Shown here: positions 3,221 through 21,974 of the stretch, piece after piece | Numbering within the stretch: position 1 is the first letter of the stretch | Layout of the letters: the number at the start of each line of letters is the position of its first letter | Source of the DNA: an uncultured Bacteroidota bacterium | GTDB lineage: Bacteria > Bacteroidota > Bacteroidia > Bacteroidales > CG2-30-32-10 | Assembly (NCBI GenBank): GCA_903847905.1 | Contig: CAINEZ010000176.1 | Span: 1-33,389, forward strand | Reading direction: 5' to 3' | Length of the DNA: 33,389 nt | Position numbers and translations under genes: made by a program | The notes under the pieces: generated by a model | What the model saw: only the letters and a program-made list of their open reading frames with translations | What the model was told of the DNA's origin: nothing | Database searches by the model: none

Positions 3221-3224
3221 TTTT

Positions 3225-3740
3225 TTATTTTTTTATCCTGATTTCAAGGATTCCGTTGTTATATTTAAATTCCATTTTTTCTTTTTCTACTTTTAATGGA
3301 AGTAACTGCTCCTTGTGATATTTCCTGGTTTTACTTTCGGCTGAAATATCAAGAATGTCTTCATGAAGATCAATCTTTATATCGTTTTCCTCTATACCGG
3401 GCATTTCTGCAATAATTACCAGTTCTTCTTTTTCATCAAAGATATCGGTCATTGGTTCGCGTTCTTCTTCGACTTTTGGCCCTTCAGGAGTTTTCCTGAT
3501 ATTACCGAAAGTCTCTACTGTAGGCTTTCCCCCAACTGCCGATTTGATCGTGAAGCCATAAACCCCTTTCATCCCTTTTTTAAGATGATCCAAATTGATC
3601 TCACCTTCTTTATTGATTGCGCCCCCTTCATTTTGAAGTTTTCCGGCGAGGTCAACTAATTTTTCAATGCCTTTAAATAACCCACCTAGTCCAAAAACAT
3701 CAAGATCCGATTCTTCTTTTTTATTTTTATCATTTTCCAT
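3225..3740 (-). CDS. gvpH: Hsp20/GvpH-type small heat-shock protein
   Basis: A 171-residue protein. The C-terminal half (about residues 95-171) is an alpha-crystallin-like domain: an acidic start (MTDIFDEKEELVIIAEMPGI), the pattern IKIDLHEDILDISAES, and a closing NGILEIRIKK. The N-terminal part (DVFGLGGLFKGIEKLVDLAGKL and a segment around GVYGFTIKSAVGG) resembles the leader found in gas-vesicle GvpH proteins rather than in ordinary Hsp20. Two residues suggest caution: the usual A-x-x-x-n-GvL motif appears as YNNGILEI, and there is no IxI tail. It lies between gvpJ-like and ArsA-type genes with short spacing, so it is probably cotranscribed. GvpH-family proteins are thought to interact with GvpA and other assembly factors. 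The gvpH symbol rests on context plus the leader. Confidence 0.82.
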   Translation of the reverse strand: MENDKNKKEESDLDVFGLGGLFKGIEKLVDLAGKLQNEGGAINKEGEINLDHLKKGMKGVYGFTIKSAVGGKPTVETFGNIRKTPEGPKVEEEREPMTDIFDEKEELVIIAEMPGIEENDIKIDLHEDILDISAESKTRKYHKEQLLPLKVEKEKMEFKYNNGILEIRIKK

Positions 3741-3780
3741 TTTGTATTGTTTTTTATTTGTTAATACTAATTTTATTCGC

Positions 3781-4086
3781 TTATTTTTTTGTTTTTAAAG
3801 GTGCTTCCAGTTTTTCCAGACGCTCCAACAATTTATCCTGTTGTTGTTTAAATTCAGCTTCCTGTGCTTTTGAAGATATGAATGTGTCGTCCTGCCACCA
3901 ATTTATCCCCATCTCCATAGCTTTGTCCACAGAAGCTACTAACAATCGGATTTTAATAGTCAACAGATCAATATCTGCAATTTGTATTTTAATATCTCCG
4001 GCAATTACAATACCTTTATCGAGAACCCTTTCCAGAATATCGGCTAGATTGGTCGCATTTACTCCATGAACAATTTGTTCTGACAT
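3781..4086 (-). CDS. gvpJ: Gas vesicle minor structural protein, GvpJ/GvpM type (GvpA family)
   Basis: The GvpA-fold signature is clear: LADILERVLDKGIVIAGDIKIQIADIDLLTIKIRLLVASVDKAMEMG. The following INWWQDDTFISS is typical of the GvpJ/M branch and absent from GvpA. The C-terminal 35 residues are charged, probably helical, with EAEFKQQQDKLLERLEKLEA. I place the start at the ATG at 4086-4084 (MSEQIVHGV, 101 residues) because a GGAGG Shine-Dalgarno sequence (4094-4098) sits 7 bases upstream. A longer reading from 4158 adds 24 residues that show no family resemblance. GvpJ-type proteins occur in small numbers at the vesicle tips or nucleation site. It follows a 190-bp intergenic stretch with palindromic repeats and precedes the Hsp20-type gene by 40 bases. 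Confidence 0.9.
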   Translation of the reverse strand: MSEQIVHGVNATNLADILERVLDKGIVIAGDIKIQIADIDLLTIKIRLLVASVDKAMEMGINWWQDDTFISSKAQEAEFKQQQDKLLERLEKLEAPLKTKK

Positions 4087-4276
4087 TATATATCCTCCAT
4101 CTTTATATTTAACTTCAACATTTGCTTCGCTGTCATTAGTTGCATAGTCATTCGTCAATATCTATTAATATCAATGAACCTGCCTGCCGGTAGGCAAGTT
4201 TCCTAATCCCACATATGCGGGATGAATATCTGTTTTTCTTTTCCTTTCGCTATTTTCCAATATCAATTAATATCTT
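4087..4276. repeat. Intergenic palindromic repeats (two types)
   Basis: This gap between the gvpV-like and gvpJ-like genes holds two short palindromes also found elsewhere in the window. The first, at 4177-4200, is centred on CCTGCCGGTAGG. The second, at 4206-4223 (ATCCCACATATGCGGGAT), is an 18-base palindrome with one mismatched pair. Relatives of the first are at about 14500, 27934 and 31448, and a relative of the second at 10512. They could act as a processing or attenuation structure in the operon mRNA, but their presence inside other genes points to a mobile repeat. Confidence 0.6.
4094..4098 (-). promoter_or_regulatory. Shine-Dalgarno GGAGG that decides the gvpJ-like start
   Basis: A perfect GGAGG on the minus strand with a 7-base spacer to the ATG at 4086. 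It supports the shorter GvpJ-like protein. Strong Shine-Dalgarno sequences are uncommon in Bacteroidota, and the sugar-nucleotide genes further right lack them. Confidence 0.6.
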
Positions 4277-4588
4277 TTAATAATCAATAGTTACAGTTTT
4301 CCATTCTTTTTTCCCGTCATCCTGATTATCTTGATTTTCTTCCGGCGAAGCACTGTTTTTCTTTCCTAACGAAGCAACATAAAATTCTTCGATCTCTTTC
4401 AATCGATTGTTGATAGGTTCCAGCCTTAACAGTAATTTTGCCTGTTCATTTTGTAATCTGGATCTTTCCTTTTCAAGCATATAAAGTTTAAGAAAATTAT
4501 GGTTTTGATTTTCGGAATCAGCGCTTGTTCTGATGCTCTGCACCGTTTTCAGGCTACGTAAGCCTTTCGATAAATTTGATTTTTGCAT
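4277..4588 (-). CDS. Small coiled-coil gas-vesicle protein, GvpV-like
   Basis: A 103-residue protein with three parts: a basic N-terminus (SKGLRSLKTVQSIRTSA, residues 7-23), a central helix (about 30-70) with heptad-like KERSRLQNEQAKLLLRLEPINNRLKEIEEF, and an acidic, Asn/Gln-rich tail. The order of a short R-x-L-x-T-x-x-S motif followed by EKxRLxxE...RLxxI resembles the small cyanobacterial GvpV protein, as I recall that family, and its place next to gvpN fits. GvpV has no well-defined function; it is treated as an accessory assembly protein. The resemblance is short and low in complexity, so the family name is tentative, but the gene is very likely real: it fills the gap between two sure gvp genes on the same strand. 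The start at 4588 has only a weak AAGAAAAG ahead of it. Confidence 0.6.
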   Translation of the reverse strand: MQKSNLSKGLRSLKTVQSIRTSADSENQNHNFLKLYMLEKERSRLQNEQAKLLLRLEPINNRLKEIEEFYVASLGKKNSASPEENQDNQDDGKKEWKTVTIDY

Positions 4589-4634
4589 AATACTTTTCTT
4601 GCATTAATTATTATTAAGAATCGTTGGTACAAAA

Positions 4635-5555
4635 TCAGGAATATTGCATAATCAATTCCTGAACAATTACTCTTACTCTTTCCTGGTTGGTTTTTGAACC
4701 AATCCGGCTTGTTTCAGAGGTCAGAATATCCTGGCATATCTTCATGAACATTTCTTTGGATTCCGAAGATGTTGTTTCTAATGTACGCAATGTTTTTGCG
4801 ATCATTATGGATCCCCGTATTGTCGGATCAAATTCGGTTTTTCCTGATTCACGCAGCCCTCTTACAATTTTTACAATTTTTTCAGCTTCTTCAAACGGAA
4901 GTCCCGATTTAGCTATTGTAATTTGTAATTCCGTATCATAGTCAAAATGATCGAGGTCCATTGTCACCATCCTGTCGCGTAAGGCATCCTGTGTTCTGTT
5001 GACCCCTGCATATTCTTCAGGATTTGAAGTAAAAATGGCGCAAAAATCAGGATGAACCTTTAGATAACTATTTTCTCCCTTCGTTGATGCCGTGCTCATC
5101 ATGCGTTCCTGAAGAATGGGGAGCAAAATATTATTTGCTTCCGGACGAGAACGGGTAAATTCATCATATATAAGCGTGAAGCCGTGTTTTACGGCTAAGG
5201 TCAACCGGTTATTGACCCATTCTTTGGTCATATCTTCCTCATATTTGTGAACTGAATGGATAAACCGGTCATCTAATTTTTTGAATTTATATCCGCTTTC
5301 ACCACCTATCAGGTCGGAAGTTTTAAATTCGGCATCACCATGAATAATAACAACAGGCCTTCCAATTTTACCTGCCAAATGCATAGCCACTGTTGTCTTG
5401 CCCGTTCCTGACGGTCCCCTGAAATGAACAGGAAACCCTGCTTTCAAATAAGTTTTTGCACGATCAGTAATATCTTTAATATAATCTGTCTCGACAAAAT
5501 TATACATCGGTGTAGGTTCAAGCACTGTATTGACTTCCTGACTCATTGATTTCAT
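4635..5555 (-). CDS. gvpN: GvpN, MoxR-like AAA+ ATPase of gas vesicle assembly
   Basis: A 306-residue AAA+ protein. It has Walker A GPSGTGKTT (residues 47-55), a Walker B-like LIYDEFTRSRPEANN, and sensor-1 AIFTSNPEEYAG. The strings HFRGPSGTGKT, VVIIHGDAEF and GVNRTQDALRDRM are characteristic of GvpN. The start at 5555 (MKSMSQEV) is supported by AAAGGA at 5563-5568 with a 7-base spacer; a second ATG at 5546 is possible. GvpN is needed for gas vesicles to reach full size, probably through ATP-driven action on growing vesicles. It is 33 bases downstream of the zinc-finger gene and 46 bases upstream of the GvpV-like gene, within one operon. This is the most secure gas-vesicle marker here beside GvpA. 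Confidence 0.95.
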   Translation of the reverse strand: MKSMSQEVNTVLEPTPMYNFVETDYIKDITDRAKTYLKAGFPVHFRGPSGTGKTTVAMHLAGKIGRPVVIIHGDAEFKTSDLIGGESGYKFKKLDDRFIHSVHKYEEDMTKEWVNNRLTLAVKHGFTLIYDEFTRSRPEANNILLPILQERMMSTASTKGENSYLKVHPDFCAIFTSNPEEYAGVNRTQDALRDRMVTMDLDHFDYDTELQITIAKSGLPFEEAEKIVKIVRGLRESGKTEFDPTIRGSIMIAKTLRTLETTSSESKEMFMKICQDILTSETSRIGSKTNQERVRVIVQELIMQYS

Positions 5556-5587
5556 TAATTAGTCCTTTCGTTTATAAGATTTATAAT

Positions 5588-5899
5588 TTAACAATACCCT
5601 TTTCCTTTGCATTTGGTGCAGGGTAATCCATCACCTGAACGTCCCGTTGCAGAGCAGGCGGGACAAATTTTATTACCAACGGAAAGGGTTCTTCCTTTTC
5701 CTCCGCATACAATACATGGAACCCTTGCGCCCAATGGATTTATCCCCGTGCCGGAACAGAAAATACATTTCCGTCCCGGTTCTTCAACTTCTACCACACC
5801 TGTTCCTTTGCATACCAGACAGAATGATGACTTAGCAAGTAATTCAAAGCAATCTTTTCCTGTCCCTTTACAGTATGCGCATTTGATTTTTGTTCCCAT
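5588..5899 (-). CDS. DnaJ-type CxxCxGxG zinc-finger protein, six motifs
   Basis: A 103-residue protein made almost wholly of CxxC motifs: Cys 7/10, 27/30, 45/48, 62/65, 79/82 and 94/97, most followed by GTG or GKG as in the cysteine-rich domain of DnaJ/Hsp40. DnaJ has four such motifs binding two zinc ions; six would allow three sites. No J domain and no substrate-binding C-terminal domain are present. The ATG at 5899 is only 2 bases after the stop of the coiled-coil/winged-helix gene, which implies translational coupling. The fold call is firm. The role is unknown: a small zinc chaperone or thiol protein for gas-vesicle assembly is the natural inference from its position between that gene and gvpN. 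Confidence 0.85.
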   Translation of the reverse strand: MGTKIKCAYCKGTGKDCFELLAKSSFCLVCKGTGVVEVEEPGRKCIFCSGTGINPLGARVPCIVCGGKGRTLSVGNKICPACSATGRSGDGLPCTKCKGKGYC

Positions 5900-5901
5900 T
5901 A

Positions 5902-7122
5902 TTACCAGATGGATTTACGTTTGGATTTTGGGTAATAGGCGTTTTCAAGTTTTAGTATTCTTCCTTCATCCAATAACTTTTTAGCTACATAGCCTAATCT
6001 CATGCGACTTTCGCCAAGTGGTTTTTCCATTTCAGATATACTTACTCCTTTTTTATGTGTATTGACATAATTCAGAACTTTTGCCTCTAATGTCTTTTCA
6101 TCTTCTGAATCATCATTTTTTGTTTCCTTTTTCACCGGACTTTCTTCCCGCACTTCTTCCTTAACAACTTTCTTCACTTCCTCCTTAACAACTTTCTGTT
6201 CTACTATTGGTTTCTGAATTTTCAGCATTTGTTCTTTTCCTGTCGAAAAAGCTCCAAGTTTTTGTTTTAGCTTTGCAATGCTATCAAATTCCGCAGCTGC
6301 TTGTGTCCTGTCAGTATAAGAGTCATTCAGAAGCGTGGAAACAAACTGTTGAATTTCATTAATTTTATTTTGGATTCCTTCAGACATAGCATTGAATTCA
6401 TCAAGTCTTTTTGCGTCATTTTTAGAGAGATCTTTTCTCAGAGTTGAGGCCATTTTTTCATTTTCCCTGCTGATTTCAGATAATCTTTTTTGAAACTTTT
6501 TCAGCATGGTATTGGTATATTCAACCCTGTCCGTGAGATTTGACGACAATTCATTTCTCAACTTGGCCGACATCTGCACATGCTCATTGTCATATTTTTT
6601 AAGCAATTCATTGGTATCTGCAAAAATATTTTTCACTTCATCTTCGATATGCAGAATATCTTTCTGAATAGCCTTCATCATCTTATCAAATTCCTTTAAC
6701 CTGTTCTTATCCCAATGCAATCTGTTTGTTTCTTCCTTTGCAAATTTCCCTTTTAGTTCATCAGCCATCTGACCACGGGTAACAGAAAAATCGTTAAGCA
6801 TATTAGCCACCGAAGTTTGGATGTCTTCAACTTCTTGTTGGATTTTAGCTATATTATTTTTAATGTTTACCATTAAATTTTCGCGAATGTCTGTCATTAA
6901 TTTTCCGAGTTCATTCAGCCGGTTCTTTTTCCCTTTGGCAAGGTTTGATCTCAATGCAGAGGCCATTTCCATTTGGTCTTTTCTAAAACTCTCCAGGGTT
7001 GTTTGAACTTCTTTTACCAGTTCTTCGTTGTCTTTCAACCTCTGCTGATATTCGTTTGCTCTTTGTTTATAAGAAGCTAATATTTCTTCTTTTAAGTTTT
7101 TCATGTCATTTGTTAAGCTCAT
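5902..7122 (-). CDS. Repeat-bearing coiled-coil protein with C-terminal winged helix; possible GvpC-like outer-shell protein
   Basis: A 406-residue, highly charged helical protein. Residues 50-280 hold four to five imperfect repeats beginning M-A-x-x-L-R/K-x-x-L and followed by R-L...M/F...I: anchors at M53, M119, M184, M224 and a weaker A275, spaced 66, 65, 40 and 51. A Lys/Glu/Val linker (about 308-343) leads to a predicted winged-helix domain (about 345-400: AKVLNYVNTHKKGVSISEME, then LGYVAKKLLDEGRI and a wing ENAYYPKS). GvpC proteins also consist of amphipathic helical repeats that wrap the GvpA shell, so a GvpC-like role is plausible, but these repeats are not the cyanobacterial 33-residue ones and I do not claim homology. 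The winged helix is odd for a shell protein. The start is supported by AAGGAG at 7129-7134. Confidence 0.75.
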   Translation of the reverse strand: MSLTNDMKNLKEEILASYKQRANEYQQRLKDNEELVKEVQTTLESFRKDQMEMASALRSNLAKGKKNRLNELGKLMTDIRENLMVNIKNNIAKIQQEVEDIQTSVANMLNDFSVTRGQMADELKGKFAKEETNRLHWDKNRLKEFDKMMKAIQKDILHIEDEVKNIFADTNELLKKYDNEHVQMSAKLRNELSSNLTDRVEYTNTMLKKFQKRLSEISRENEKMASTLRKDLSKNDAKRLDEFNAMSEGIQNKINEIQQFVSTLLNDSYTDRTQAAAEFDSIAKLKQKLGAFSTGKEQMLKIQKPIVEQKVVKEEVKKVVKEEVREESPVKKETKNDDSEDEKTLEAKVLNYVNTHKKGVSISEMEKPLGESRMRLGYVAKKLLDEGRILKLENAYYPKSKRKSIW

Positions 7123-7219
7123 TTTTTTCTCCTTTTTTTAGGGTTTATATTTATTTTATTTTTATTTATTCGTTAATGTGAGTGATTATAATGGATACGT
7201 TGAATATTCTTTTCTTAAA

Positions 7220-7894
7220 CTATACTATTTCTTTTTCTTTCAATACGTTTTTTTTGACATTTTTAATGTCTTTGCAAAACACCTGAACACCTTTTTCAAG
7301 TAACATTTTGAAACTTTTGGTTATATTGTTATGAATCGTTTGAAAATCCAATAATTTCTTTTCGACAAGATCTTTTCTTTCTTTCTGCACTTGTAAAATA
7401 TGTTCCAGTTCCTGTTTAAATGTTTTAATTTTTTCTTTGCATTCTTTCGATTCGGTATCTTTTAAATCAAGAATACCTTTTCTTAAAAAGCGGGCCATTG
7501 CTTTTTGATCTTCGATATATTGACAAAATTGATTCTCTGCTTCTTTCTCTTTCTCATCCAACAAAAAGAAAATATCTTCCATCATCTTGTCATAATCGTT
7601 TTTACGCAGGGAACCATTCTTGGCCAGATTTTCACGTAATTCTGAATTTAAACATGTTCTTTCTTCTCTAAGGTCGTTCAGAGAATTTTGGAAATCTTTC
7701 AATAAAACATGTGAGGATTCGGTAACAGCTTCGGAGGTGGAAAAAATTGTTTCGATCTTTTGGATACGAGCTTCATAAGAAGTAATAAAATCTTCGATAA
7801 AATCATTAATGCTTGCTTGAGGCGTTTCTTTCATGTCAATTAAATTGTTTTTAAATTTTTCATTGAATTGAATAAAAAAATCTTGGTAAATCAT
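7220..7894 (-). CDS. Coiled-coil protein related to the downstream repeat protein (GvpC-like candidate)
   Basis: A 224-residue charged, helical protein directly after gvpA. Two segments carry the same motif as the 406-residue downstream protein: residues 82-108 (LNSELRENLAK...R...MMEDI) and 133-163 (MARFLRKGIL...KIKTFKQEL), 51 residues apart. The two genes therefore look like diverged paralogues. It has no winged helix, no signal peptide and no membrane segment. Its place between gvpA and the rest of the operon is where gvpC lies in cyanobacteria, which supports a shell-strengthening or assembly role by analogy. Function is not established. The start at 7894 has only AAGAAAG ahead of it; a later Met at residue 21 is the next choice. 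Confidence 0.7.
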   Translation of the reverse strand: MIYQDFFIQFNEKFKNNLIDMKETPQASINDFIEDFITSYEARIQKIETIFSTSEAVTESSHVLLKDFQNSLNDLREERTCLNSELRENLAKNGSLRKNDYDKMMEDIFFLLDEKEKEAENQFCQYIEDQKAMARFLRKGILDLKDTESKECKEKIKTFKQELEHILQVQKERKDLVEKKLLDFQTIHNNITKSFKMLLEKGVQVFCKDIKNVKKNVLKEKEIV

Positions 7895-8640: not shown

Positions 8641-10092
8641 CTAATCACCATTTTTTTTGATGACGATATTGAATTTTTTCATTTTCCTGATCAATGCATC
8701 CCTTGAAATACCAAGGATTTCAGCAGTTGCTTTCTGATTATATTCACAATTATGCAATGCCAGCCGGATCAATTCCATTTCATTTTCTTCCAGATTTAAT
8801 TTGATGGAACTAACAAACTTTGATGATTTTGATTTGAGCTTAACCGGAAAATTTTGTACTCCCAAAGGGCCGCCATTACTGAGGATAATTGCTCTTTCCG
8901 TCATGTTTTTCAACTCCCTGACATTACCCGGGAAGTCATATTTCTTCAAAGCCTGAATGACGTCTTTATCAATTTGGGGAGTATGTTTATTGAATTTCAT
9001 AGCGAAATCCTTGGCGAAATAAAGCAATAGCGGTTCAATGTCCTCCGGCCGTTCCCTAAGAGGCGGAAGGTGAATGTGCAGAGTATTCAGCCGGTGAATC
9101 AGGTCGAGGCGGAATTTTTTTTCTTCCACTAATTTATCTAAATCATGATTGGTGGCCGAAATAATCCGAAAATCGGTAGAAATTTTATTAGTATCCCCAA
9201 CAGGGGTAATCTTTTTTTCTTCAATTGCCCGTAAAATTTTTGCCTGAAGATTCAAAGGCATATCAGCGATTTCGTCGAGAAACAATGTCCCCTGATCACA
9301 GATTTCAAAAAAGCCTTTTTTATCGGCTATCGCACCTGTAAACGATCCTTTTTTATGTCCAAAGAATTCACTTTCTAGAAGAGAATCCGTAATTGCGCTA
9401 CTATTTACCGCCCAAAAAAGATTATCTTTCCTGGTACTGGCAAAGTGAATAATTCTCGCGATATTTTCTTTTCCCGTACCGCTTTCTCCCGTAATGAGCA
9501 CATTGGTATCAGAATATTGTGAAGCAGTCATGGCCACTTCAAGAACATCCATAATCTGCCGGCTTACACCTACGAAATGACGTCCGATTCTTTCTTCCAA
9601 ACTTTTGGAAATTAAAGAGTCTTTTTCTTCTATTTTCTTCATTTTCTGCTGGAGATACAGAAATTTCTGGGTACGCTCAATTGCAATCTGAATATCAATA
9701 TGCCTGAAGGGTTTTCTGAGATAATCAATTGCACCTAACCGCATGGCTTTGATCACAGTATCCATATCTCCATGGGCCGAAACAATAATAACCTCCATGT
9801 CAGGATATTTCTCCTTTACTTCTTTTAAAATGTCCAAACCATCAGACCCGGGTAAGCGAACATCAAGAATTAATAAATCAATTTTCTGTTTTTTTAATAC
9901 CGATAAACCCTGATTGGCAGTATTGGCCTCTATAGCCTGAAATCCATTATTCTGAAGAAATTCATTCAATTCTTCAGTAAAATGCTTTTCATCATCCAGT
10001 ATAAGAACTGTAAACTTGTTCTGAGGGAATGAAGTTTTTTTTGTAGCATCTGTTTCCATTACAATTGAGTTGGTTTTGGAATTTATGTTCAT
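8641..10092 (-). CDS. NtrC-type sigma-54-dependent response regulator
   Basis: A 483-residue protein with three domains. The receiver (about 27-145) has the acidic pair D33/D34, phospho-acceptor D77 in LLILDVRLPG, S105 and K127. The AAA+ domain has Walker A GESGTGKE (202-209), the sigma-54 contact loop GSFTGA (249-254, Ser for the usual Ala) and Walker B GTLFLDEI (268-275). A Fis-type helix-turn-helix ends the protein (ATAEILGISRDALIRKMKKF). All parts for phosphorylation-controlled activation of sigma-54 RNA polymerase are present. Neighbours are a multi-PAS kinase upstream on the same strand and, downstream, a sigma-54 promoter before gvpA, so it probably controls gas-vesicle production; an NtrC-like regulator (GvrA) does so in Serratia. 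An alternative start is the Met at residue 12. The specific target is inferred. Confidence 0.95.
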   Translation of the reverse strand: MNINSKTNSIVMETDATKKTSFPQNKFTVLILDDEKHFTEELNEFLQNNGFQAIEANTANQGLSVLKKQKIDLLILDVRLPGSDGLDILKEVKEKYPDMEVIIVSAHGDMDTVIKAMRLGAIDYLRKPFRHIDIQIAIERTQKFLYLQQKMKKIEEKDSLISKSLEERIGRHFVGVSRQIMDVLEVAMTASQYSDTNVLITGESGTGKENIARIIHFASTRKDNLFWAVNSSAITDSLLESEFFGHKKGSFTGAIADKKGFFEICDQGTLFLDEIADMPLNLQAKILRAIEEKKITPVGDTNKISTDFRIISATNHDLDKLVEEKKFRLDLIHRLNTLHIHLPPLRERPEDIEPLLLYFAKDFAMKFNKHTPQIDKDVIQALKKYDFPGNVRELKNMTERAIILSNGGPLGVQNFPVKLKSKSSKFVSSIKLNLEENEMELIRLALHNCEYNQKATAEILGISRDALIRKMKKFNIVIKKNGD

Positions 10093-10251: not shown

Positions 10252-13200
10252 TTAATGGACAATAGGTAAGATAATCCGCATGGTTGTTCCTATTAAAGGA
10301 TCGCTTTGGATTTCAATATTCCCGCCCATTTCTTTAATTATTCCGAATGAAATGGAAAGTCCCAGCCCAGTTCCTTGCCCTGCTTTTTTTGTAGAATAGA
10401 ACGGAAGCATAATTTTGTCTATTTCACTTGCTTTAATTCCTATTCCATTATCTTTAACTTCAACATAAATGACTTGATCATCCTGATGCGTGCTGATATT
10501 AACCACCTTTCGATCCTGCACATGCGGGATCAATGTTTTCTTTTTTTCTTCCACAGCATCTTTGGCATTTGTCAGTAAATTCAGGATTACCTGTTCAAAT
10601 TTATATGTGTTTCCGAGAATAGGCTGGATTTTTTTGTCAAGGGAAATTCTTATATCAATTGCTTTGTGCTTATATTGCTCTGATACCATTGATATAGCGT
10701 TTTTAATGCTATCATTTATATCAAATAAAGTAAGGATATAATCGTCATGATCCTGGGAAAAAGCCCTTATGTGATCAATGATGTTTCCAATTCTTAAAAT
10801 ATTTTCAAATACTTTATCAGATTTGTCCTGAAGGTACTTTTCGTCAATAGTTTTTTTTGTTTTAATTTCAAGGAAAATATTTTCAAGACTCAAAGAAATG
10901 GTATTTAACGGTTGATTGATTTCATGTGCAATACCGGTAGCCATTTCCCCCAAGCCCGCCATGCGTTCAGTATGAATCAGCTTCCTTTCCATTTGTTTTC
11001 GTTGAGAGATATCCCTGATTATGGCCATAAATGCTTTTGGTTTACCACCGCTTTCCTGAATTAGAGTGGAACTGATTTCGCTAATAAATCGTGATTTATT
11101 TTTTTTAGTCAGTCGGACCTCTATATTTTGAACCAAGCCTTCGGACACTGTCCTTTTTTGCATCTCTTTCACTTTTTTAATTTCTTCAGGAGGGATGAAG
11201 CGTAAAAAATGCTTTCCTATAAAATTAGCTTTGTCTTCATCCCCCATAATTTCAAGAGTAATATTTGATACTTCTGTAATACGGCCATTCAGATCCAACA
11301 TAACTATACCTTCCGGTAGCGCATTCAATAATGTATGCGTTTCTTTTAATGCATTTTCTGTATTTATAAGCGAAGAGATGTCATTATTTGCGCCTCTGAT
11401 TCCTAAAAGAATCCCTTTCTTATCCAATATCGGCAAACAATTCACTTGCATGAAAACACTATGGCCTGTCTTATCTATATATTCAATAACCAAATTTCTT
11501 AAAACTTTTTTATCAGATAATTGGGCAAAGATTTTTTTCTTCAATTCAATTATAATCTTTGATTCAAAAAGATCATAGAAGTGTTTTATGCCAATGATTT
11601 CTGCCGGCGTGTATCCCATGATATCTGCTACAACAGGATTTGAATACGTATATAAGCCTTGAGCATCTGTTTCCCATATCCATTCTCCGACAGTTTCAGT
11701 GATTTGTTTATACCGTTCATCGCTTTCGCGTATTATTTTTTCAAAAAACCTGCGCTGCAATACCGCAGAGGTTTGGTTTATGAATGCCTGAACGACATTT
11801 TCATTTTTAAGCTCTTCGCCTTTTTGCAATATAAATGAAACCGATCCATACAATTCATTGTTTATAGAAAAACCCATCAAATGGACACTTCCCATGTTAA
11901 GCATCTTTTCAACAGCCAGGCAAACGGAACGAGGAATAGATTCTGCGGAGAGCTCATATAACCCTCCGTGAACCTGAATTATCTCTTTACTGCATAAGTC
12001 TTTATGCTGACGGGCAAAAGTGATATCATCTTTTGGTTTCACTTTCATTCCAACTATGCTTCTGCCTAATACTTTTTGTATTTTATCGATGATTGTGTTT
12101 TCAGCAAAAAATGATTCAACCGTAAGTTCGGTTACTCCTTTGTCAAAGGAATTGATCAGAATATATTTTGCTCCCGTTAGTTTTCTGAAGATTTCTGAGA
12201 TATAATCATAGATATTTTCTTCATGTGCGATCTCAACATACTTCATGGCTGATTCCGTCAATAAGGCAATACTCTCACTATAATAGTCTTTATCCTTATC
12301 CTTATTCTTGATATTGCTCACGATGCAATGGGATTGCAGAAAATGGCCATGCTTATCATAAGAAATTCTTCCTTCGAAGTATGCATGCATTATTTTTCCG
12401 TCCCCGCGCAGTACATCAAATTGTATATCGTTAATATAGCTCTGTTTAATGAATTTCAGAAAAATTTCCCTGAACATATTCTTATATTCAGGAGTAATAA
12501 AATCTACAAAATTTCTCCCGACAACTTTTTCTTTGTCTGAATATGCTAATGTATCTAGTGCGGCATGATTTACATCAAGGATGGTTCCATCTATACTGAG
12601 CGAATAATATCCAAATACTGCTTGTTCGTATAACAAACGGTAGTGTTGTTCGCTTTTACGCAATGCTTCTTCTGCCTGCTTGCGCTTGGTAATATCTTCA
12701 AAAGATGCCTGCATGCAAATTGGCTGGCCATTTGAATTAAATACCATGCTTGCTACTATCCGGATATCGAAGAGATTCCCATTCTTTCCTTGCCCAACCA
12801 ATTCCCCATTCCAGTTCCAGCGTGCGTGCAAGACCTTTATTATTTCCGCAGCCTTTTCTCCCATCAGCCAGAATTCCGTTATTGATTTTCCAAGTATTTC
12901 TGACTGTGAGTCATATCCCCACAACGAGAGAAATGCGGAATTCACATAGCTCAGATTTCCTTCAAGCCCAAAGATTGCAATTGCATTAAATGTTGATTCA
13001 ACAGCCCAATTCTTTACCAGAAGAGCCTCCTCCGTCTGCTTGCGCTCGGTGATGTCCCTGAAAATGCCATAAGTTCCGATAAGTATTCCCTTGTTGTTAA
13101 ACTGCGGTGTTGCCGTTACCAATAAGCAATGCCGTTCACCATTTGGAATAATAATATCGATTTCATAAGTAGACTTTTCCGCTCGCGACCGCTTCTCCGT

Positions 13201-13542
13201 TTCCTGCAATATCACTGGAATCTGTTCAGCGCTCACAAAATCTTTCAAATTACGCCCTTTTAAACTTCCGGGGGGCACACCAAAAATCCGCTCGGCTGCA
13301 GGATTTACGAAAACAAAACATTCATCCAAATCAACAACGCCCATTCCTTCACCCTGATTTTCGATAAGCAAGTGATACTTCTCTTCGCTTTCTTTCAGAG
13401 CTTGTTCTGCCTGTTTGCGTTTGGTTATATCAGATAAAGACACAACTAAGCAAGCTTCTTCTTCTTCTTCTTCTGCAAGAAACATTCTTGCTACATCAAA
13501 CTGAAGAATAAGCTCATCACTTTGAATAATTTCATCTTTCAT
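10252..13542 (-). CDS. Multi-PAS/GAF sensor histidine kinase (N-terminus begins inside a PAS domain)
   Basis: A 1096-residue soluble kinase. Residues 1-42 look like the last strands of a PAS domain (ELILQFDVARMFLA, then CLVVSLSDITKRKQAE). Next come three PAS domains (about 50-415), a GAF-like domain (about 420-600), two more PAS domains (about 605-850), HisKA with His873 in GIAHEINQPLN, and HATPase_c with N-box ILNLLTNAKDA, G1 KDNGIGI and G2 GQGTGLGLSI. All catalytic parts are intact. The HATPase domain carries an in-frame TLIPHVQDR between N- and G1-boxes that matches a dispersed palindrome. Six Glu in a row (residues 24-29) are encoded by a CTT microsatellite on the plus strand. The start overlaps the upstream stop as ATGA with a GGAG 7 bases ahead. 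Adjacent to the NtrC-type regulator, it is its likely partner. The start in mid-PAS suggests it was once continuous with the sensor encoded at 14834-17497. Confidence 0.9.
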   Translation of the reverse strand: MKDEIIQSDELILQFDVARMFLAEEEEEEACLVVSLSDITKRKQAEQALKESEEKYHLLIENQGEGMGVVDLDECFVFVNPAAERIFGVPPGSLKGRNLKDFVSAEQIPVILQETEKRSRAEKSTYEIDIIIPNGERHCLLVTATPQFNNKGILIGTYGIFRDITERKQTEEALLVKNWAVESTFNAIAIFGLEGNLSYVNSAFLSLWGYDSQSEILGKSITEFWLMGEKAAEIIKVLHARWNWNGELVGQGKNGNLFDIRIVASMVFNSNGQPICMQASFEDITKRKQAEEALRKSEQHYRLLYEQAVFGYYSLSIDGTILDVNHAALDTLAYSDKEKVVGRNFVDFITPEYKNMFREIFLKFIKQSYINDIQFDVLRGDGKIMHAYFEGRISYDKHGHFLQSHCIVSNIKNKDKDKDYYSESIALLTESAMKYVEIAHEENIYDYISEIFRKLTGAKYILINSFDKGVTELTVESFFAENTIIDKIQKVLGRSIVGMKVKPKDDITFARQHKDLCSKEIIQVHGGLYELSAESIPRSVCLAVEKMLNMGSVHLMGFSINNELYGSVSFILQKGEELKNENVVQAFINQTSAVLQRRFFEKIIRESDERYKQITETVGEWIWETDAQGLYTYSNPVVADIMGYTPAEIIGIKHFYDLFESKIIIELKKKIFAQLSDKKVLRNLVIEYIDKTGHSVFMQVNCLPILDKKGILLGIRGANNDISSLINTENALKETHTLLNALPEGIVMLDLNGRITEVSNITLEIMGDEDKANFIGKHFLRFIPPEEIKKVKEMQKRTVSEGLVQNIEVRLTKKNKSRFISEISSTLIQESGGKPKAFMAIIRDISQRKQMERKLIHTERMAGLGEMATGIAHEINQPLNTISLSLENIFLEIKTKKTIDEKYLQDKSDKVFENILRIGNIIDHIRAFSQDHDDYILTLFDINDSIKNAISMVSEQYKHKAIDIRISLDKKIQPILGNTYKFEQVILNLLTNAKDAVEEKKKTLIPHVQDRKVVNISTHQDDQVIYVEVKDNGIGIKASEIDKIMLPFYSTKKAGQGTGLGLSISFGIIKEMGGNIEIQSDPLIGTTMRIILPIVH
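10512..10531. repeat. Palindromic repeat in frame inside the HATPase domain
   Basis: GATCC and GGATC bracket a GCATGTGC-like centre. It resembles the intergenic palindrome at 4206-4223. It encodes part of TLIPHVQDR, a surface loop between the N- and G1-boxes where extra residues would be tolerated. Confidence 0.5.
13455..13474. repeat. CTT microsatellite (six units) in the kinase gene
   Basis: Six CTT units and a partial seventh encode the Glu run at residues 24-29 of the kinase. A change by whole units keeps the frame. Confidence 0.6.
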
Positions 13543-14837
13543 AATTTCGCTCCGATTTTGTTTCCTTCAGGTAGTTGACCATAATTTTTTTTGAAATTTT
13601 TCAACAGCTTTTTTTCTAATTCAATATAGTCGGCAGTAACGTGATACCGTATGCTCACATTATCATTATGAATGAATTCCGCTATACATTTATTCTTTAA
13701 CACTTTTCCGTTATAATTTGCAATGCGTCGGCGTAGATTTTTAGAAGAACCTATGTAAATAACACGACTGCTGCATTTCGGGTAAGGTATCTTCGTTGAA
13801 AGACACAGTTCGTAAACGCCCTGTTCAGTAGGGATTCGATTAATGGTTTTTAAAATTAATACGATGGGATTGCTGAATGAAATCCCATTTGGATAGTAGC
13901 AATCACTTCGTTCTCTGAAGTTGGGTATGGAAAGTAGTTTTCGACATTCACAGATTGTTCGCACTGAAATGTGGATGTCGTATTGCTTTTTCAGAATAGT
14001 TTGAATATCCTTATCGGTTAGCGCTTTGTCGGATTCATCAATAAAATTCTTAATAACATTAGCATAAAATCTTCTTTTTGAAATAAAAAGATTTTTCAAA
14101 ATGATAGTTTTTCCGCTTTGCATCTGAAGTAACAAAACGGAACCAAGCCTTGAAAGTCTTGATTCATCAAGATTAGGATGCGGATAAAGTAAAATGAATT
14201 TTCTCAACGTCAAAGGTTTGATATACGATACATCCCCTGCCTCCCAAAACTTTTTCTGAAATTCAATAATTCCGCGGACTATATGTTCTGAGAGTTTATT
14301 TCTCGTATTAATCATTTTCACCACAACTTCTTTATTCTGTCCGTTTAAGGGATATTGCTTTATTAATCTTTCATCGGCTATTTCAATTTTGAATATATGA
14401 CCGGGGTTTTCGGGAATACTTAGTGTTTGTCCATAATGTCCGACTTCTTCCCCGCCTGAATGACGCAGTCGGGCAGGGTTACACTCGTCAAAAAAATGTC
14501 TGCCTGTCCGCCTGCCTGCCGGCAAGGCAGGGTAGGCAGGCTCGATTACCCCAGTAAACTCCGCTTTTTTTGACTTCGAAAGCCTCGAATTCGAACATTC
14601 TGATCCAAACACTGACTTTATGGACAGACACTGAGTTTCCGTGCAAGCACTACTTATGTTTTCATTTGCCGGAACAACCTTAGCAAAAAAAGAAACTCGT
14701 TTTTCTTTGTAATTTTCGAAGCCATTAATTTTTCTTTCTACAAAACTTAGGTATTGATTCATTGACATTTTAAGAATTTTCGATAATGTTATTTTTGCTA
14801 TTGCTGATCCATGCAAAGGAGATATTTTCCTTTTCAT
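13539..14837 (-). CDS. Sigma-54 (RpoN)-like protein fused to a GIY-YIG domain, lying between two sensor genes
   Basis: A 432-residue protein. Residues about 140-255 follow the RpoN core-binding pattern: NKLSEHIVRGIIEFQKKFWE, then YIKPLTLRKF, DESRLSR (compare HESTVSR) and IILKNLFIS. Residues 272-305 follow the RpoN DNA-binding part: ALTDKDIQTILKK and VRTICECRKLLSIP, which matches the RpoN-box frame RT....R..L.IP but differs from ARRTVAKYRE. Region I, needed for activator control, is short or absent (residues 1-45 at best). Residues 338-426 are a GIY-YIG domain: GVYEL, VIYIGSSKNLRRRI, ELEKK and a late LPEGN, so the key Tyr, Tyr, Arg, Glu and Asn are present. Residues 100-135 (YPALPAGRRTGRHFF, then NPARLRHSGG) are encoded by an inserted palindromic repeat. 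Both ends overlap the neighbouring genes as ATGA. Possible roles: a specialised or inhibitory sigma-54 factor, or a homing-type insertion. Function unknown. Confidence 0.75.
   Translation of the reverse strand: MKRKISPLHGSAIAKITLSKILKMSMNQYLSFVERKINGFENYKEKRVSFFAKVVPANENISSACTETQCLSIKSVFGSECSNSRLSKSKKAEFTGVIEPAYPALPAGRRTGRHFFDECNPARLRHSGGEEVGHYGQTLSIPENPGHIFKIEIADERLIKQYPLNGQNKEVVVKMINTRNKLSEHIVRGIIEFQKKFWEAGDVSYIKPLTLRKFILLYPHPNLDESRLSRLGSVLLLQMQSGKTIILKNLFISKRRFYANVIKNFIDESDKALTDKDIQTILKKQYDIHISVRTICECRKLLSIPNFRERSDCYYPNGISFSNPIVLILKTINRIPTEQGVYELCLSTKIPYPKCSSRVIYIGSSKNLRRRIANYNGKVLKNKCIAEFIHNDNVSIRYHVTADYIELEKKLLKNFKKNYGQLPEGNKIGAKL
14440..14545. repeat. Compound palindromic repeat in frame inside the sigma-54-like/GIY-YIG gene
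   Basis: Two adjoining palindromic parts, one around CCCGCCTGA...TCGGGCAGGG and one around CCTGCCTGCCGGCAAGGCAGG, add about 35 residues (LPAGRR...NPARLRHSGG) that have no counterpart in sigma-54 proteins. The second part shares its core with repeats at 4177, 27934 and 31448. Confidence 0.65.
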
Positions 14838-17497
14838 TGAGACTTTATGGAAATACGTATTTCTGTTTTTTTTCCGTTTAGAATTTTGCTACTCAACTGC
14901 TCAATTATTTTTTGAGCAAGTTCTTCTTCTGTATATCCCAGTACCGGTGCGTATTTTCGGATAATATCACCAAACGCCTTGTTCTGCTTCAGGAGACTCA
15001 TTGATTCCGTAAACACGAGAACCCCTTCAGGAATAAACTTAAAGATATTTTCAATTATTGCTTTGTAATGTTCATCTTTTCTCCGAAGGGTTTCTTCCTC
15101 CTGCTTGCGGTCGGTGATGTTCTCATGCATAAAAACAAATCGTTCCGGTTTTCCATTGCTATCAAATAAAGGGAATACAACCGTCCGTACCCAAACAGGG
15201 GTATCAGGGAATTCGGAGACTGAATCGTGGGGATTGTAACGCACATCAGGAAAGCGAACAACTTCTCCGTTTTTAATACGTTCAATTAACTCTTTAAATC
15301 CTTGTTGTATTAACTGCGAATCATTAAAAAATGAAAAGTCAGGAGGGGGAACTCCGCCAAAAAGCAAGGTGTGCGCAGAATTTACTTTAAGTGTGAAACC
15401 TTCTTTATCTACAATTTGAATTGACATCGGATTTTTTTCAATGATGTCCTGTACCATTTTCTCAACCTGCTTACGCTCGGTGATGTTAACGATTATTCCC
15501 CGCAAACCGGCGACCTTGCCATCATGAATAATAACCGTCGAATGGATCGTGGCAGGGAAGGTACTCCCATCCTTTCTCTGCATAGTGAATTCGTTCGAGC
15601 CAATATTTTCGCCCTTTATGATTTTCTGTATATTTTCCGATGCACGGCCACGATCATCGGGAATAATCATGTCCAAAACATTCAAACCAACAGCGAAGTC
15701 CTCCTGAGTGTAACCGAAGTCATCGAAGGCGTTCTTGTTTACGAAGGTCAGCACGCCATGTGCATCCATTTCGTAAACGGTTTCAGGCAACAACTCCCCG
15801 AGCTTCCTGAAGCGCTTCTCGCTCTTTTTCAGCGCCTCTTCTGCCTGCTTGCGTTGTAGGACTATGGAAGTTTGATTTATAAAAGTATCGATAATGTCTG
15901 CATTTTCGAGCACCTCCCCTCTTCGCAGGAGCAAAACAGCACTTCCATATAACTCATCACCGACGGAAAGCCCCATAGCATAAACATTTTCAACATCCAG
16001 CAATAGTTCTATCGAGTGACAAATTGCCCGCGGAATTTTTTCACCTGATAATTCAAATAATCCACCGGGAACTTGTAGCTTTTCTTTACGTAATAATTCT
16101 TTAAAGATACGATCATCGGGTTCCATAGTATATCCTTCGACCTTTTTCCCCAGCAATTTCGTGATTTGGTTGTTAATTGTTTTATCTGCATAAAACGATT
16201 CACTGGTTAATGTGTTCGATGTTTTATTGTATGAATTGATGATCACATATTTTGCTCCGGTTAAATTTTTTAATACATCCCGTATATAATCATAAATATT
16301 CTCGCCTGGCGATATAGTAACATATTTTACGGCTGCCTGGGAAAGCAGGGCAATATTTGCAAGATGTCGTTTTTCCTTTTCCTCAGCCTGTTTGCGTTCA
16401 GTGATGTCCCGTGCTATAAAAATAATCCCGGATATATTCCCTTCCTCATTTTTCAACGGGGAGGATGAAAAAAGTATCGGAATTTCTTTTCCATTTTTCG
16501 CCAGAAAATCAGTTTCATAATTTTTTACGATTTCCCCCTTTGTTATTTTTTCTAACAGATCCCTTTTAAGACTACCTTTACTGAAAAGCATCCCAACGGA
16601 TTTTCCTTCTAATTCTTTTTGCTTATATTTTAATGAATCTAAGGTTGCTTTATTTACGGTAAGTATAAATCCATCCTGATCTAAAAGAAGTAAAAATTCC
16701 TCAATAGAAGAGATAATATTCTCAGCAGCAACAGCAGGAGAGATAGATAAAAACTTATATTTAATTATGGCATAAACCACAGCCACTGTAAAGATCAGCA
16801 GGAACACATTTGCCAATGATGGAATTTCCTGAACATTCAGTTTTGGAATCACCACATCAAATATTGTCCCACCCACTAAGCCAATACAAACAGAAGCCAC
16901 AATTATTTTTGCCTGCTTTTTTTCAAATAATTTCTCTGTTTTTCTCCAATACCGGTATATAAAATAGATTGCCAGAATCGTAAATGAAATATAATAAGCA
17001 TAAAAAAGATAAGGCCAGATTGTATCAGACCAATTATTTACCCAGCCATAATACTGTTGTACATGATTTATCGCCAGACAATTTGTCCATTGTTTGTAAA
17101 TGAAAAACAGTGGAATAATCAGAGTAATAACTCTAATAAAATTCTTCCTTAAGATATCCTCCTTTTTAGCAAAAGCAAGAGAAAAATAACAAAGAGCGAT
17201 TGGGAAACCAATCCACCCTATGGAAGAAATATTCTGAAATAGTTTTGCAGTATCCTTTGAAAGATCATAACCGGCAGGAAAAATATCAGCAAAATTCCAT
17301 ATTGCAAAACAAGCCATTAAAACAGCACAAGACCTGTTAAGTATGGATTTTGGGGTTTTATAAAACACAAAAACCGCCAAACTTATATATGCAAGGATAC
17401 AGAAAAAATGCAGAAATGATAATAAAATCATTTGTTTATATATTGTTTGATACCGATACGGAACTGGTTTGCAATCCGAAACTTCGGGATAAACCAT
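14834..17497 (-). CDS. 7TM-PAS-GAF-PAS sensor protein without kinase core (possible first half of a split kinase)
   Basis: An 887-residue protein. An N-terminal seven-helix membrane region (about 24-250) is of the histidine-kinase 7TM type. It is followed by PAS (262-372), a GAF-like domain (378-550), PAS (555-680), a further PAS (682-800) and an unfinished PAS (807-887), which ends at RISIKSQ just where the last strands should follow. There is no HisKA or HATPase. The GAF-like domain closely resembles that in the kinase at 10252-13542 (NIYDYI, LTGAKY, GGLFELS, ELYGSA, INQTS in order). The missing PAS strands appear at the start of that kinase, with the sigma-54-like/GIY-YIG gene in between. 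The stop overlaps the next start as ATGA. The true start may be the Met at residue 23 (17431), just before the first helix. What it senses cannot be told; it would sit in the inner membrane. Confidence 0.85.
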   Translation of the reverse strand: MVYPEVSDCKPVPYRYQTIYKQMILLSFLHFFCILAYISLAVFVFYKTPKSILNRSCAVLMACFAIWNFADIFPAGYDLSKDTAKLFQNISSIGWIGFPIALCYFSLAFAKKEDILRKNFIRVITLIIPLFFIYKQWTNCLAINHVQQYYGWVNNWSDTIWPYLFYAYYISFTILAIYFIYRYWRKTEKLFEKKQAKIIVASVCIGLVGGTIFDVVIPKLNVQEIPSLANVFLLIFTVAVVYAIIKYKFLSISPAVAAENIISSIEEFLLLLDQDGFILTVNKATLDSLKYKQKELEGKSVGMLFSKGSLKRDLLEKITKGEIVKNYETDFLAKNGKEIPILFSSSPLKNEEGNISGIIFIARDITERKQAEEKEKRHLANIALLSQAAVKYVTISPGENIYDYIRDVLKNLTGAKYVIINSYNKTSNTLTSESFYADKTINNQITKLLGKKVEGYTMEPDDRIFKELLRKEKLQVPGGLFELSGEKIPRAICHSIELLLDVENVYAMGLSVGDELYGSAVLLLRRGEVLENADIIDTFINQTSIVLQRKQAEEALKKSEKRFRKLGELLPETVYEMDAHGVLTFVNKNAFDDFGYTQEDFAVGLNVLDMIIPDDRGRASENIQKIIKGENIGSNEFTMQRKDGSTFPATIHSTVIIHDGKVAGLRGIIVNITERKQVEKMVQDIIEKNPMSIQIVDKEGFTLKVNSAHTLLFGGVPPPDFSFFNDSQLIQQGFKELIERIKNGEVVRFPDVRYNPHDSVSEFPDTPVWVRTVVFPLFDSNGKPERFVFMHENITDRKQEEETLRRKDEHYKAIIENIFKFIPEGVLVFTESMSLLKQNKAFGDIIRKYAPVLGYTEEELAQKIIEQLSSKILNGKKTEIRISIKSQ

Positions 17498-20515: not shown

Positions 20516-21772
20516 TCATTTGGATTTTTCGACCTTACTCTCAGGTTTTATAGGGGGGACAGGTTTATTATCAAACACCTCCATCGCCTTATCCAAATCA
20601 GCATTGACAATTTTTGCGTAAACCTGAGTGGTTTTAATTGAAGCATGGCCCATCAGCTTTGAAACATATTCAATGCGCATACCTTTACGAAGCGCACGCG
20701 TAGCCCATGTATGCCGGGAAGTGTGGAAATGAACATGCTTTTCGATACCGGCATCATTGGCAAGGTCTTTCAGATCAGTGTTAGTATAAGCAGTGATGGA
20801 AGAAATTGCTGTATGTAATTTTGTTGGAGTTGAAATATCAGCATATTTATCAAGGAAAGGGAAAATAAATGATTCCTTTTTAGAATCCTTGCTGTGATAG
20901 CTTTTAATAATTGATATTGCTTTTTCAGGAAGCTTTATTGAAATTACGGAACCGGTTTTTTGAGTATTCAATAAAAGGTGGGTATTATCAAAATTGCTCC
21001 ATTTAAGAGTAATCAAATCAGAAATACGGATACCTCCGGCATAGCATGCAAGGATATACATATTGCGGTGATGGTACTTCATGGATTCTTTATCTAGAGG
21101 AAGATCTTCGATAGCTGCAATTTCTTCTTCAGTGAGAAAAACTTTTTCTGTATTCTTCCAGGTTAATTTATAGGTAAGGAAAGGGTTCTTTGCGAATTCA
21201 AGGTGTTTATCCTCCACCGCTTCATTTAAAATGCGCCTGATGGCTCTGAAATTAGCAATAACGGTATTATTTGTATTTTTATAGAAAGTGCGTAAATGAT
21301 CCTCGTACTTTTTCAGAAAGGCAGTGTCAATCATTTTTATTGTAAGCTCTTTCCCGTTAACGTATGCTTTCAACTTTGAAACAACAGCCTCAAACCTTTT
21401 ATAAGTCCCGATTTTGCCTTTATTCTCGTATAGCTTATTAAATTTTCCGGCATAAGCGAAAAATTCAACAGGCGCTTTACCCTGCAATGCTTCTTTGATT
21501 TCATTAACAGTTGATGAAGGATCATCTGTTTCTTTGTCTAACAGGCCATCAAGTGCAATCCTTGTTTTTTCTGCGATGTACTTATTCATGCGTATTGAAT
21601 TCGGATGATTAGGCTTTACTTTCTGGGCGTCTTCATCCCAATACTTCGGAAGCACATTTATTTGTAAAGAATAGTATTTTGTCTGCCTGTTTTTTATTAA
21701 ACGGATATAAACAGGAATTTCACCATTTTTTCTTGCTTTATGATGTAATAAAATTATCTTTGTAGTTGCCAT
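20516..21772 (-). CDS. Tyrosine recombinase/integrase (Bacteroidetes type), intact
   Basis: 418 residues from the ATG at 21772 (MATTKIILLHHKARKNGEIP). An arm-binding N-terminus (1-90) is followed by a core-binding domain (about 100-200) and the catalytic domain. The catalytic set is complete: R249 (GGIRISD), K272, H350 and R353 (HFHTSRHTWA), H376 (LMGHASIKTT) and nucleophile Y385. A longer frame to 21913 would add 47 residues of poor quality, and a -7 element (21789-21796) lies just ahead of the chosen start. It carries an extra 17-residue tail after VFD, where the remnants at 17644 and 18224 have a stop, so those come from related but different recombinases. It may have moved or rearranged the neighbouring accessory genes. 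Confidence 0.93.
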   Translation of the reverse strand: MATTKIILLHHKARKNGEIPVYIRLIKNRQTKYYSLQINVLPKYWDEDAQKVKPNHPNSIRMNKYIAEKTRIALDGLLDKETDDPSSTVNEIKEALQGKAPVEFFAYAGKFNKLYENKGKIGTYKRFEAVVSKLKAYVNGKELTIKMIDTAFLKKYEDHLRTFYKNTNNTVIANFRAIRRILNEAVEDKHLEFAKNPFLTYKLTWKNTEKVFLTEEEIAAIEDLPLDKESMKYHHRNMYILACYAGGIRISDLITLKWSNFDNTHLLLNTQKTGSVISIKLPEKAISIIKSYHSKDSKKESFIFPFLDKYADISTPTKLHTAISSITAYTNTDLKDLANDAGIEKHVHFHTSRHTWATRALRKGMRIEYVSKLMGHASIKTTQVYAKIVNADLDKAMEVFDNKPVPPIKPESKVEKSK

Positions 21773-21788
21773 CTGCGTTGGTTTTCTG

Positions 21789-21796
21789 CAAAGATA
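21789..21796 (-). promoter_or_regulatory. -7 promoter element of the recombinase gene
   Basis: On the minus strand TATCTTTG fits TAnnTTTG. The start of transcription would be about 9 bases before the ATG. No good -33 element is seen at the usual spacing. Confidence 0.4.
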
Positions 21797-21974
21797 AGCA
21801 AAATGCTGAAATAGGTAAAACAATAGGTTAAACAATTTACATTTATTTATGAACAAAGGGGTAAATTTCCAAAAGCAGAAAAAAGCAAAAGTCTTTATTA
21901 ACAAGCATTTCAATAAAATGAGGTGCGAAGCGAAGCGGGCATCGTGATCCCAGCCAGATCACGCCTATAACGTC

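Follow-up and report, generated by a model that had tools for sequence, protein, structure and literature searches.

The window (the whole stretch of 33,389 nucleotides of DNA that was analysed) carries on its reverse strand a gene encoding a 432-residue protein, in which a sigma-54 DNA-binding domain is joined to a GIY-YIG nuclease domain. Relatives of this fusion in other genomes, apart from that in Arcobacter, lie beside sensor genes with pure microsatellites in or next to them, and most of these repeats start immediately after a DNA element of the sigma-54 type. The best explanation, to which we give a probability of a little under 60%, is that the fusion protein would be part of a module dedicated to diversifying the adjacent repeats. 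The pattern points to an inbuilt means of varying sensor genes in several bacterial groups.

The fusion gene, defined by its open reading frame and translation, an ATG start, Pfam matches and the family alignment, occupies positions 13539–14837 (reverse strand). The protein consists, in order, of a conserved N-terminal motif, a variable linker, the sigma-54 DNA-binding domain and the nuclease domain. Homology to Sigma54_DBD extends over residues 167–310 (13908–14339, reverse strand), with an E value of 7.5e-11 and 42.5 bits against a gathering score of 22.8 in Pfam, while the NCBIfam model rpoN_sigma matched residues 169–310 (E = 2.5e-11). This part contains a helix-turn-helix (DESRLSR) and an RpoN-box-like helix (SVRTICECRK). 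When a profile of the fusion family was compared with solved chains, RpoN was the best match (5ui5, sigma-54 on promoter DNA, E = 2.5e-13), and alignment with a profile of 35 RpoN sequences using hhalign gave a probability of 99.5 (E = 1.2e-21). Past the RpoN box the protein continues, the GIY-YIG domain coming next in all members. In the window this domain spans residues 338–426 (13560–13826, reverse strand), as judged from Pfam and from invariant columns in relatives; the Pfam match itself covers residues 358–417 (E = 5.1e-5, 23.9 bits, gathering score 22.6), and the family profile also matched the solved structure of T4 Endonuclease II (E = 0.0047). The catalytic-type residues are Y342, Y361, R371, E408 and N426. 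In a six-sequence alignment G340, Y342, Y361–G363, R371, E408 and N426 were invariant, and G(V/I)YE, YIG, R371, E408 and N426 were kept in every aligned member of the family.

A preliminary description of this DNA had claimed such a fusion at 13539–14837, and with both domains above their Pfam gathering scores that claim stands. The profile searches that it proposed matched the RpoN and GIY-YIG families significantly, and DESRLSR, an RT....R..L.IP frame and the GIY, YIG, R, E and N residues all lie where it had placed them. It had also read residues 140–305 as following the RpoN layout, which held for the DNA-binding domain; most of the core-binding region, on the other hand, could not be aligned. 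The alignment with the RpoN profile becomes confident only where the core-binding region is about to end, and about 140–170 residues precede the DNA-binding domain in the fusion family, compared with some 330 in RpoN. We also considered the N-terminal motif as a counterpart of sigma-54 region I, for which a profile comparison with RpoN N-termini gave no support (probability 1.6). The source genome encodes a separate, ordinary RpoN of 495 residues.

Structure prediction, likewise proposed in the preliminary description, gave a poor model for the window protein (pLDDT 42) but succeeded with the core of a homologue (locus L098, 25% identical to the window protein), for which the model reached a pLDDT of 68 and matched both folds. 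It superimposed on the RpoN box of 5nwt with a Z value of 9.4 and an rmsd of 1.5 Å over 59 residues, and on T4 Endonuclease II and UvrC with Z values of 7.9 and 7.7, respectively; the latter two, middling on their own, count jointly with the sequence matches. The fusion of a sigma-54 DNA-binding domain with a GIY-YIG nuclease domain is thus confirmed, and no joint sigma-54/GIY-YIG model matching the whole protein was found in Pfam, NCBIfam or PHROGs. In two close pairs of fusion genes dN/dS was 0.30 and 0.20, which indicates purifying selection. Homopolymeric tracts also occur at two of the loci, i.e., G10 inside the fusion gene of L100 (7835–7844) and G12 ahead of that of L118, directly after TTGC (4852–4863).

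Within the window, the fusion gene overlaps both of its neighbours by ATGA, its start lying on the upstream stop and its stop on the downstream start. The upstream ORF (14834–17497, reverse strand; Pfam and a PAS HMM) encodes an 887-residue 7TM and PAS sensor, and the downstream ORF (10252–13542, reverse strand; Pfam and an HMM of polyE-PAS domains) encodes a histidine kinase of 1096 residues. The first ends, and the second begins, inside one and the same PAS domain. The joined halves fit a PAS HMM built from the relatives from end to end (positions 4–128 of 128, 39.7 bits), whereas the separate halves matched only positions 4–38 (upstream) and 86–128 (downstream), so that the fusion gene sits inside a PAS-coding region. 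Neither this split domain nor the GAA tract described below had featured in the preliminary description. A simple target-site duplication, suggested by ATGAAA at both ends of the insertion, was rejected, because removing one copy did not restore the reading frame. In the downstream half, starting 65 bp beyond the stop codon of the fusion gene, is a (GAA)6 microsatellite that codes for a poly-Glu loop of the PAS domain (13456–13473, reverse strand); it provides the one occurrence of TTGCN(GAA)5 in the 4.55-Mb source genome. Directly before the repeat we found, from the sequence and from motif statistics, a degenerate -24/-12-like site, AG-N8-TTGC (13475–13488, reverse strand), whose positional counterpart in relatives is GG-N8-TTGC. 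The -24 half of this presumed target has decayed to AG, so that the window copy may be weak or inactive.

Part of the linker, roughly residues 69–114, comes from a dispersed palindromic repeat (core CCTGCCTGCCGGCAAGGCAGG-like; 14497–14632, reverse strand) that is read in frame and that had 39 other matches among those listed in a DNA search of the same genome. As the preliminary description had indicated, two PAS sensors flank the fusion gene and an NtrC-type sigma-54 activator is encoded nearby (8641–10092; Pfam). Farther away are a gas-vesicle neighbourhood (2237–5899; a GvpA-type protein, an ArsA-type ATPase, Hsp20, an AAA ATPase and a DnaJ zinc-finger-like protein) and a gene for a tyrosine integrase that has Arm-binding and SAM-like domains (20516–21913), a possible sign of an integrated element near the locus.

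A survey of the fusion and its neighbours, also proposed at the outset, brought to light nine more distinct loci with this fusion, in the phylum of the window, in beta-, gamma- and alpha-proteobacteria and in Arcobacter, with a PAS sensor carrying a microsatellite as the recurring neighbour. Searches of plasmids by tblastn yielded members on pSTJ2 of Sulfuricystis multivorans, pDCB1 of Diaphorobacter sp. JS3051 and pACLO of Arcobacter cloacae, all annotated merely as "GIY-YIG nuclease family protein". Profile searches added metagenome-assembled genomes (MAGs) named Rhodospirillum, HGW-Gammaproteobacteria-2 and HGW-Betaproteobacteria-9. In the phylum of the window, 2 of 395 genomes carried the fusion (that of the window and G133), as did 6 of 399 in the order of G455 (G455; G476, the Sulfuricystis genome; G504; G527; G571, whose copy appears truncated; and G729). 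Among 281 alphaproteobacterial genomes there was one carrier, which was already known. A scan of genome contigs for exact peptides of the window protein alone found no relative, whereas the aligned family did recover relatives; phage records and IMG/VR yielded no fusion.

With the exception of that in Arcobacter, every fusion locus adjoins a PAS sensor gene, or the remnant of one, with pure microsatellites: (GAA)6–14 inside the PAS domain and/or (GCAA)3.5–32 between the fusion and sensor genes. In proteobacteria the partner, downstream of the fusion gene, is a protein of the Protoglobin-PAS-PAS-GGDEF-EAL type (from a Pfam run on the L098 copy), and in G133 and the window it is a PAS histidine kinase, also downstream. 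The GAA tract numbers 6 (window), 7, 7, 8, 8, 9, 9 (an orphan sensor gene), 12, 13 and 14 units and encodes a poly-Glu loop in one of the PAS domains. The GCAA tract begins shortly after the stop codon of the fusion gene and contains 3.5, 5.5, 6.5, at least 9.8 (gapped) or 32 units. A short leader ORF starts at that stop codon (ATGA), and its frame is shifted by changes in the number of GCAA units; in L070, L071, L098, L099 and L100 the ATGA-coupled start does not share the reading frame of the sensor. Switching through changes in GCAA length is at most a possibility.

The orphan gene, on contig 9 of G504 (L152, about 5957–7386 of the reverse complement), encodes a HAMP-PAS sensor with both (GCAA)28 and (GAA)9, each following its own GG-N8-TTGC site. 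No fusion gene was recognized in the 9.5 kb fetched around it, and this sensor would be a target in trans. On Arcobacter plasmid pACLO, the region that separates the fusion gene from a divergent chemoreceptor gene contains an (ATCTT)4.6 array (L072, 5654–5676), which is 43 bp ahead of the fusion gene and has no sigma-54-type site.

At the fusion loci and the G504 orphan locus together, 15 of 17 arrays (listed in 18 rows, one row being the second half of the gapped array) started 0–1 nt after an exact GG-N8-TTGC, a pattern whose background frequency is 1 per 2,328 positions; two of the 15 belong to the orphan gene, elsewhere in a carrier genome. The exceptions were the window, with AG-N8-TTGC, and the ATCTT array of Arcobacter. 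Examples are TTGGAAAGCGCCTTGC followed by (GCAA)n and CTGGCATCCGCCTTGCG followed by (GAA)n in Diaphorobacter, and CTGGAATACGTGTTGCA followed by (GAA)7 in G133. The motif corresponds to the sigma-54 element, whose consensus is TGGCACG-N4-TTGCW, the GG lying near -24 and the GC near -12 (PMC2725144). The rule relating site and repeat had been noted before loci L117–L120 were fetched, and all seven arrays of these four loci fitted it. In L100 the GAA tract and its site are both missing, while the GCAA array has its site.

These arrangements bear on two other ways of reading the nuclease. The fusion gene could be a selfish homing endonuclease whose sigma-54-derived domain recognizes a conserved site in PAS-sensor genes; the gene would then insert close by and spread, and cutting would vary the repeats only incidentally. 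GIY-YIG domains are common among homing enzymes, the gene is found on plasmids and in a shared, mobile-looking region, and in the window it is inserted into a PAS-coding region. However, at nearly every locus the gene lies next to an undamaged presumed target rather than splitting it, and even the window insertion lies 65 bp from the repeat and does not split its own site. Moreover, the fusion gene and sensor are kept as a pair in fixed order, the site is carried by two different repeat types, and arrays of up to 32 units are unexpected for simple homing. We therefore regard homing as unlikely.

Alternatively, the protein might regulate transcription of the adjacent sensor gene, or compete there with sigma-54, using the nuclease fold for binding only and with ordinary slippage acting on the repeats. 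Sigma-54 can bind promoters in the absence of core RNA polymerase (PMC2725144), and the GCAA site lies just ahead of the sensor ORF. The GAA site, by contrast, is about 1 kb inside the coding sequence, the catalytic-type residues are invariant, and repeats that start exactly at the site are left unexplained, so that we find a purely regulatory role rather improbable.

The association of site and repeat was also compared with other genomes. TTGCN(GAA)5 occurred in 3 of the 395 genomes of the phylum, i.e., in the two fusion genomes and in an unrelated gene for an outer-membrane-type protein, where the GG is absent. Arrays of at least five GCAA units were present in 14 of the 399 genomes of the order of G455. 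They followed GG-N8-TTGC in six of six cases in fusion genomes (one being the G504 orphan locus) but in none of the eight judged elsewhere, excluding one array that ran off its contig and a second array in G795; Fisher's test gave p = 1/3003, although the six are related loci. In G511, G519, G534 and G842 (L135, L131, L130 and L125), GCAA tracts of 5–30 units lie in genes resembling type I restriction-modification genes, with no sigma-54-type site, and these look like ordinary contingency loci. Matches of the GAA-site pattern in viral contigs proved to be unrelated acidic phage proteins and were discarded, and the GCAA-site pattern had no match in viral contigs. The codon bearing the TT of the -12 half is always CTT or GTT; codon usage multiplied over eight genes gives 1.9e-7, a value that shared ancestry makes less extreme in truth, and this points to constraint at the codon level.

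Many of the loci are related by descent, so that conservation of the site is not fully independent between them. Shared ancestry might then suffice, with sensor, repeats and fusion gene inherited or transferred together and no causal link between site and repeat, and the proteobacterial loci are indeed clearly homologous. Nevertheless, outside the GG and TTGC the sites differ from one another in sequence, the repeat units that come after them are not all alike, rare CTT codons are kept, and the pattern recurs in the phylum of the window, at about 25% protein identity, and in the orphan sensor. We consider it very improbable that co-inheritance is the whole explanation. The first suggestion of the preliminary description, a sigma-54-like factor with a dedicated or inhibitory role in gas vesicles, drew on the gas-vesicle genes within the window and the sigma-54-like DNA-binding domain, but is scarcely credible given that most of the core-binding region cannot be aligned and region I cannot be detected, that the recurring partner in relatives is a PAS sensor bearing repeats, and that no gas-vesicle gene was noticed on viewing their neighbourhoods.

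An 8.3-kb region common to Diaphorobacter pDCB1, HGW-Gammaproteobacteria-2 and HGW-Betaproteobacteria-9 allowed near-identical copies to be compared. In 8,323 aligned columns there were three events, i.e., one SNP, one GCAA unit (5.5 versus 6.5) and the lengths of the GAA tract, which were 8, 14 and 13 units, respectively; two of the three copies are MAGs, in which repeat length may be misassembled. Between the two MAG copies the sole difference in 10.5 kb was one GAA unit. Repeat length is thus the main thing varying between otherwise near-identical copies, and pure repeats that differ in length in this way are what characterizes a contingency locus.

In the module that we propose, the sigma-54-like domain would bind to the -24/-12 element but would not serve as a sigma factor. 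The adjacent repeat would be nicked or cut by the nuclease domain, and repair would then add or remove units. Changes in GAA number would alter the length of the acidic PAS loop without breaking the frame, while changes in GCAA number would shift the frame or spacing between the upstream start and the sensor ORF. A sensory kinase or c-di-GMP enzyme would in this way vary quickly, locally and heritably, and further sensors that carry such a site may be remote targets. In the window, the gene for the fusion has itself inserted into the PAS-coding region beside its presumed target. The preliminary description had offered, as its second suggestion, a sigma-54-derived part guiding a nuclease to DNA, and the comparative evidence favours that reading. 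Several points count against the module: microsatellites can vary by slippage alone, members are rare (2/395, 6/399 and 1/281 genomes), the Arcobacter array lacks the site, and in the window the GG is replaced by AG. In addition, it is assumed that the nuclease, which is attached at the -24 side of the DNA reader, can reach the repeat. A stronger claim, that this is a programmed microsatellite mutator in several phyla, in which a non-transcriptional sigma-54 domain guides the GIY-YIG nuclease, in cis and in trans, to -24/-12 elements adjoining short repeats within sensor genes and thereby alters repeat length and signalling at a high, targeted rate, seems to us evenly balanced.

If the proposal is correct, a sigma-factor DNA reader steering a nuclease to sites beside repeats would represent a new way of targeting mutation, and would link the evolution of sigma-54 with genome diversification. 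The target rule, GG-N8-TTGC, can be read from a genome, and the idea is directly testable, since three of the carriers, in Diaphorobacter, Sulfuricystis and Arcobacter, are named isolates. To our knowledge few locus-specific mutators are known, such as diversity-generating retroelements and site-specific inversion systems. Variation at simple-sequence contingency loci is usually regarded as passive, arising from slippage. Neither the fusion nor a nuclease associated with repeats of this kind turned up in our searches of open-access full texts, preprints aside. The module would be new in kind, and its function is a proposal drawn from comparison of sequences.

Compared with sigma-54 itself (RpoN, PF04552), the fusion protein has the same helix-turn-helix and RpoN-box fold and motifs, and its sites have the same GG-N10-GC layout. 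Unlike RpoN, it runs on into a nuclease, most of its core-binding domain cannot be aligned and region I is undetectable, and its associated sites lie at repeats, some deep in coding sequence. With GIY-YIG nucleases (PF01541; the UvrC N-terminal domain, T4 Endonuclease II, R.Eco29kI and the I-TevI type) it shares the fold and catalytic-type residues, but here the domain is joined to a sigma-54 DNA reader. Like the simple-sequence contingency loci of tetra- and trinucleotide phase variation, the fusion loci have pure short repeats, in or before genes, that differ in length; they differ in that the repeats come right after a sigma-54-type site and a dedicated nuclease gene lies alongside, whereas other GCAA loci of the order of G455 have no such site. 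An analogy, with no relation implied, may be drawn with diversity-generating retroelements, in which a dedicated enzyme is similarly linked to the gene diversified, with a defined site and possible remote targets, although the fusion system would employ a nuclease and repeat length in place of a reverse transcriptase and template.
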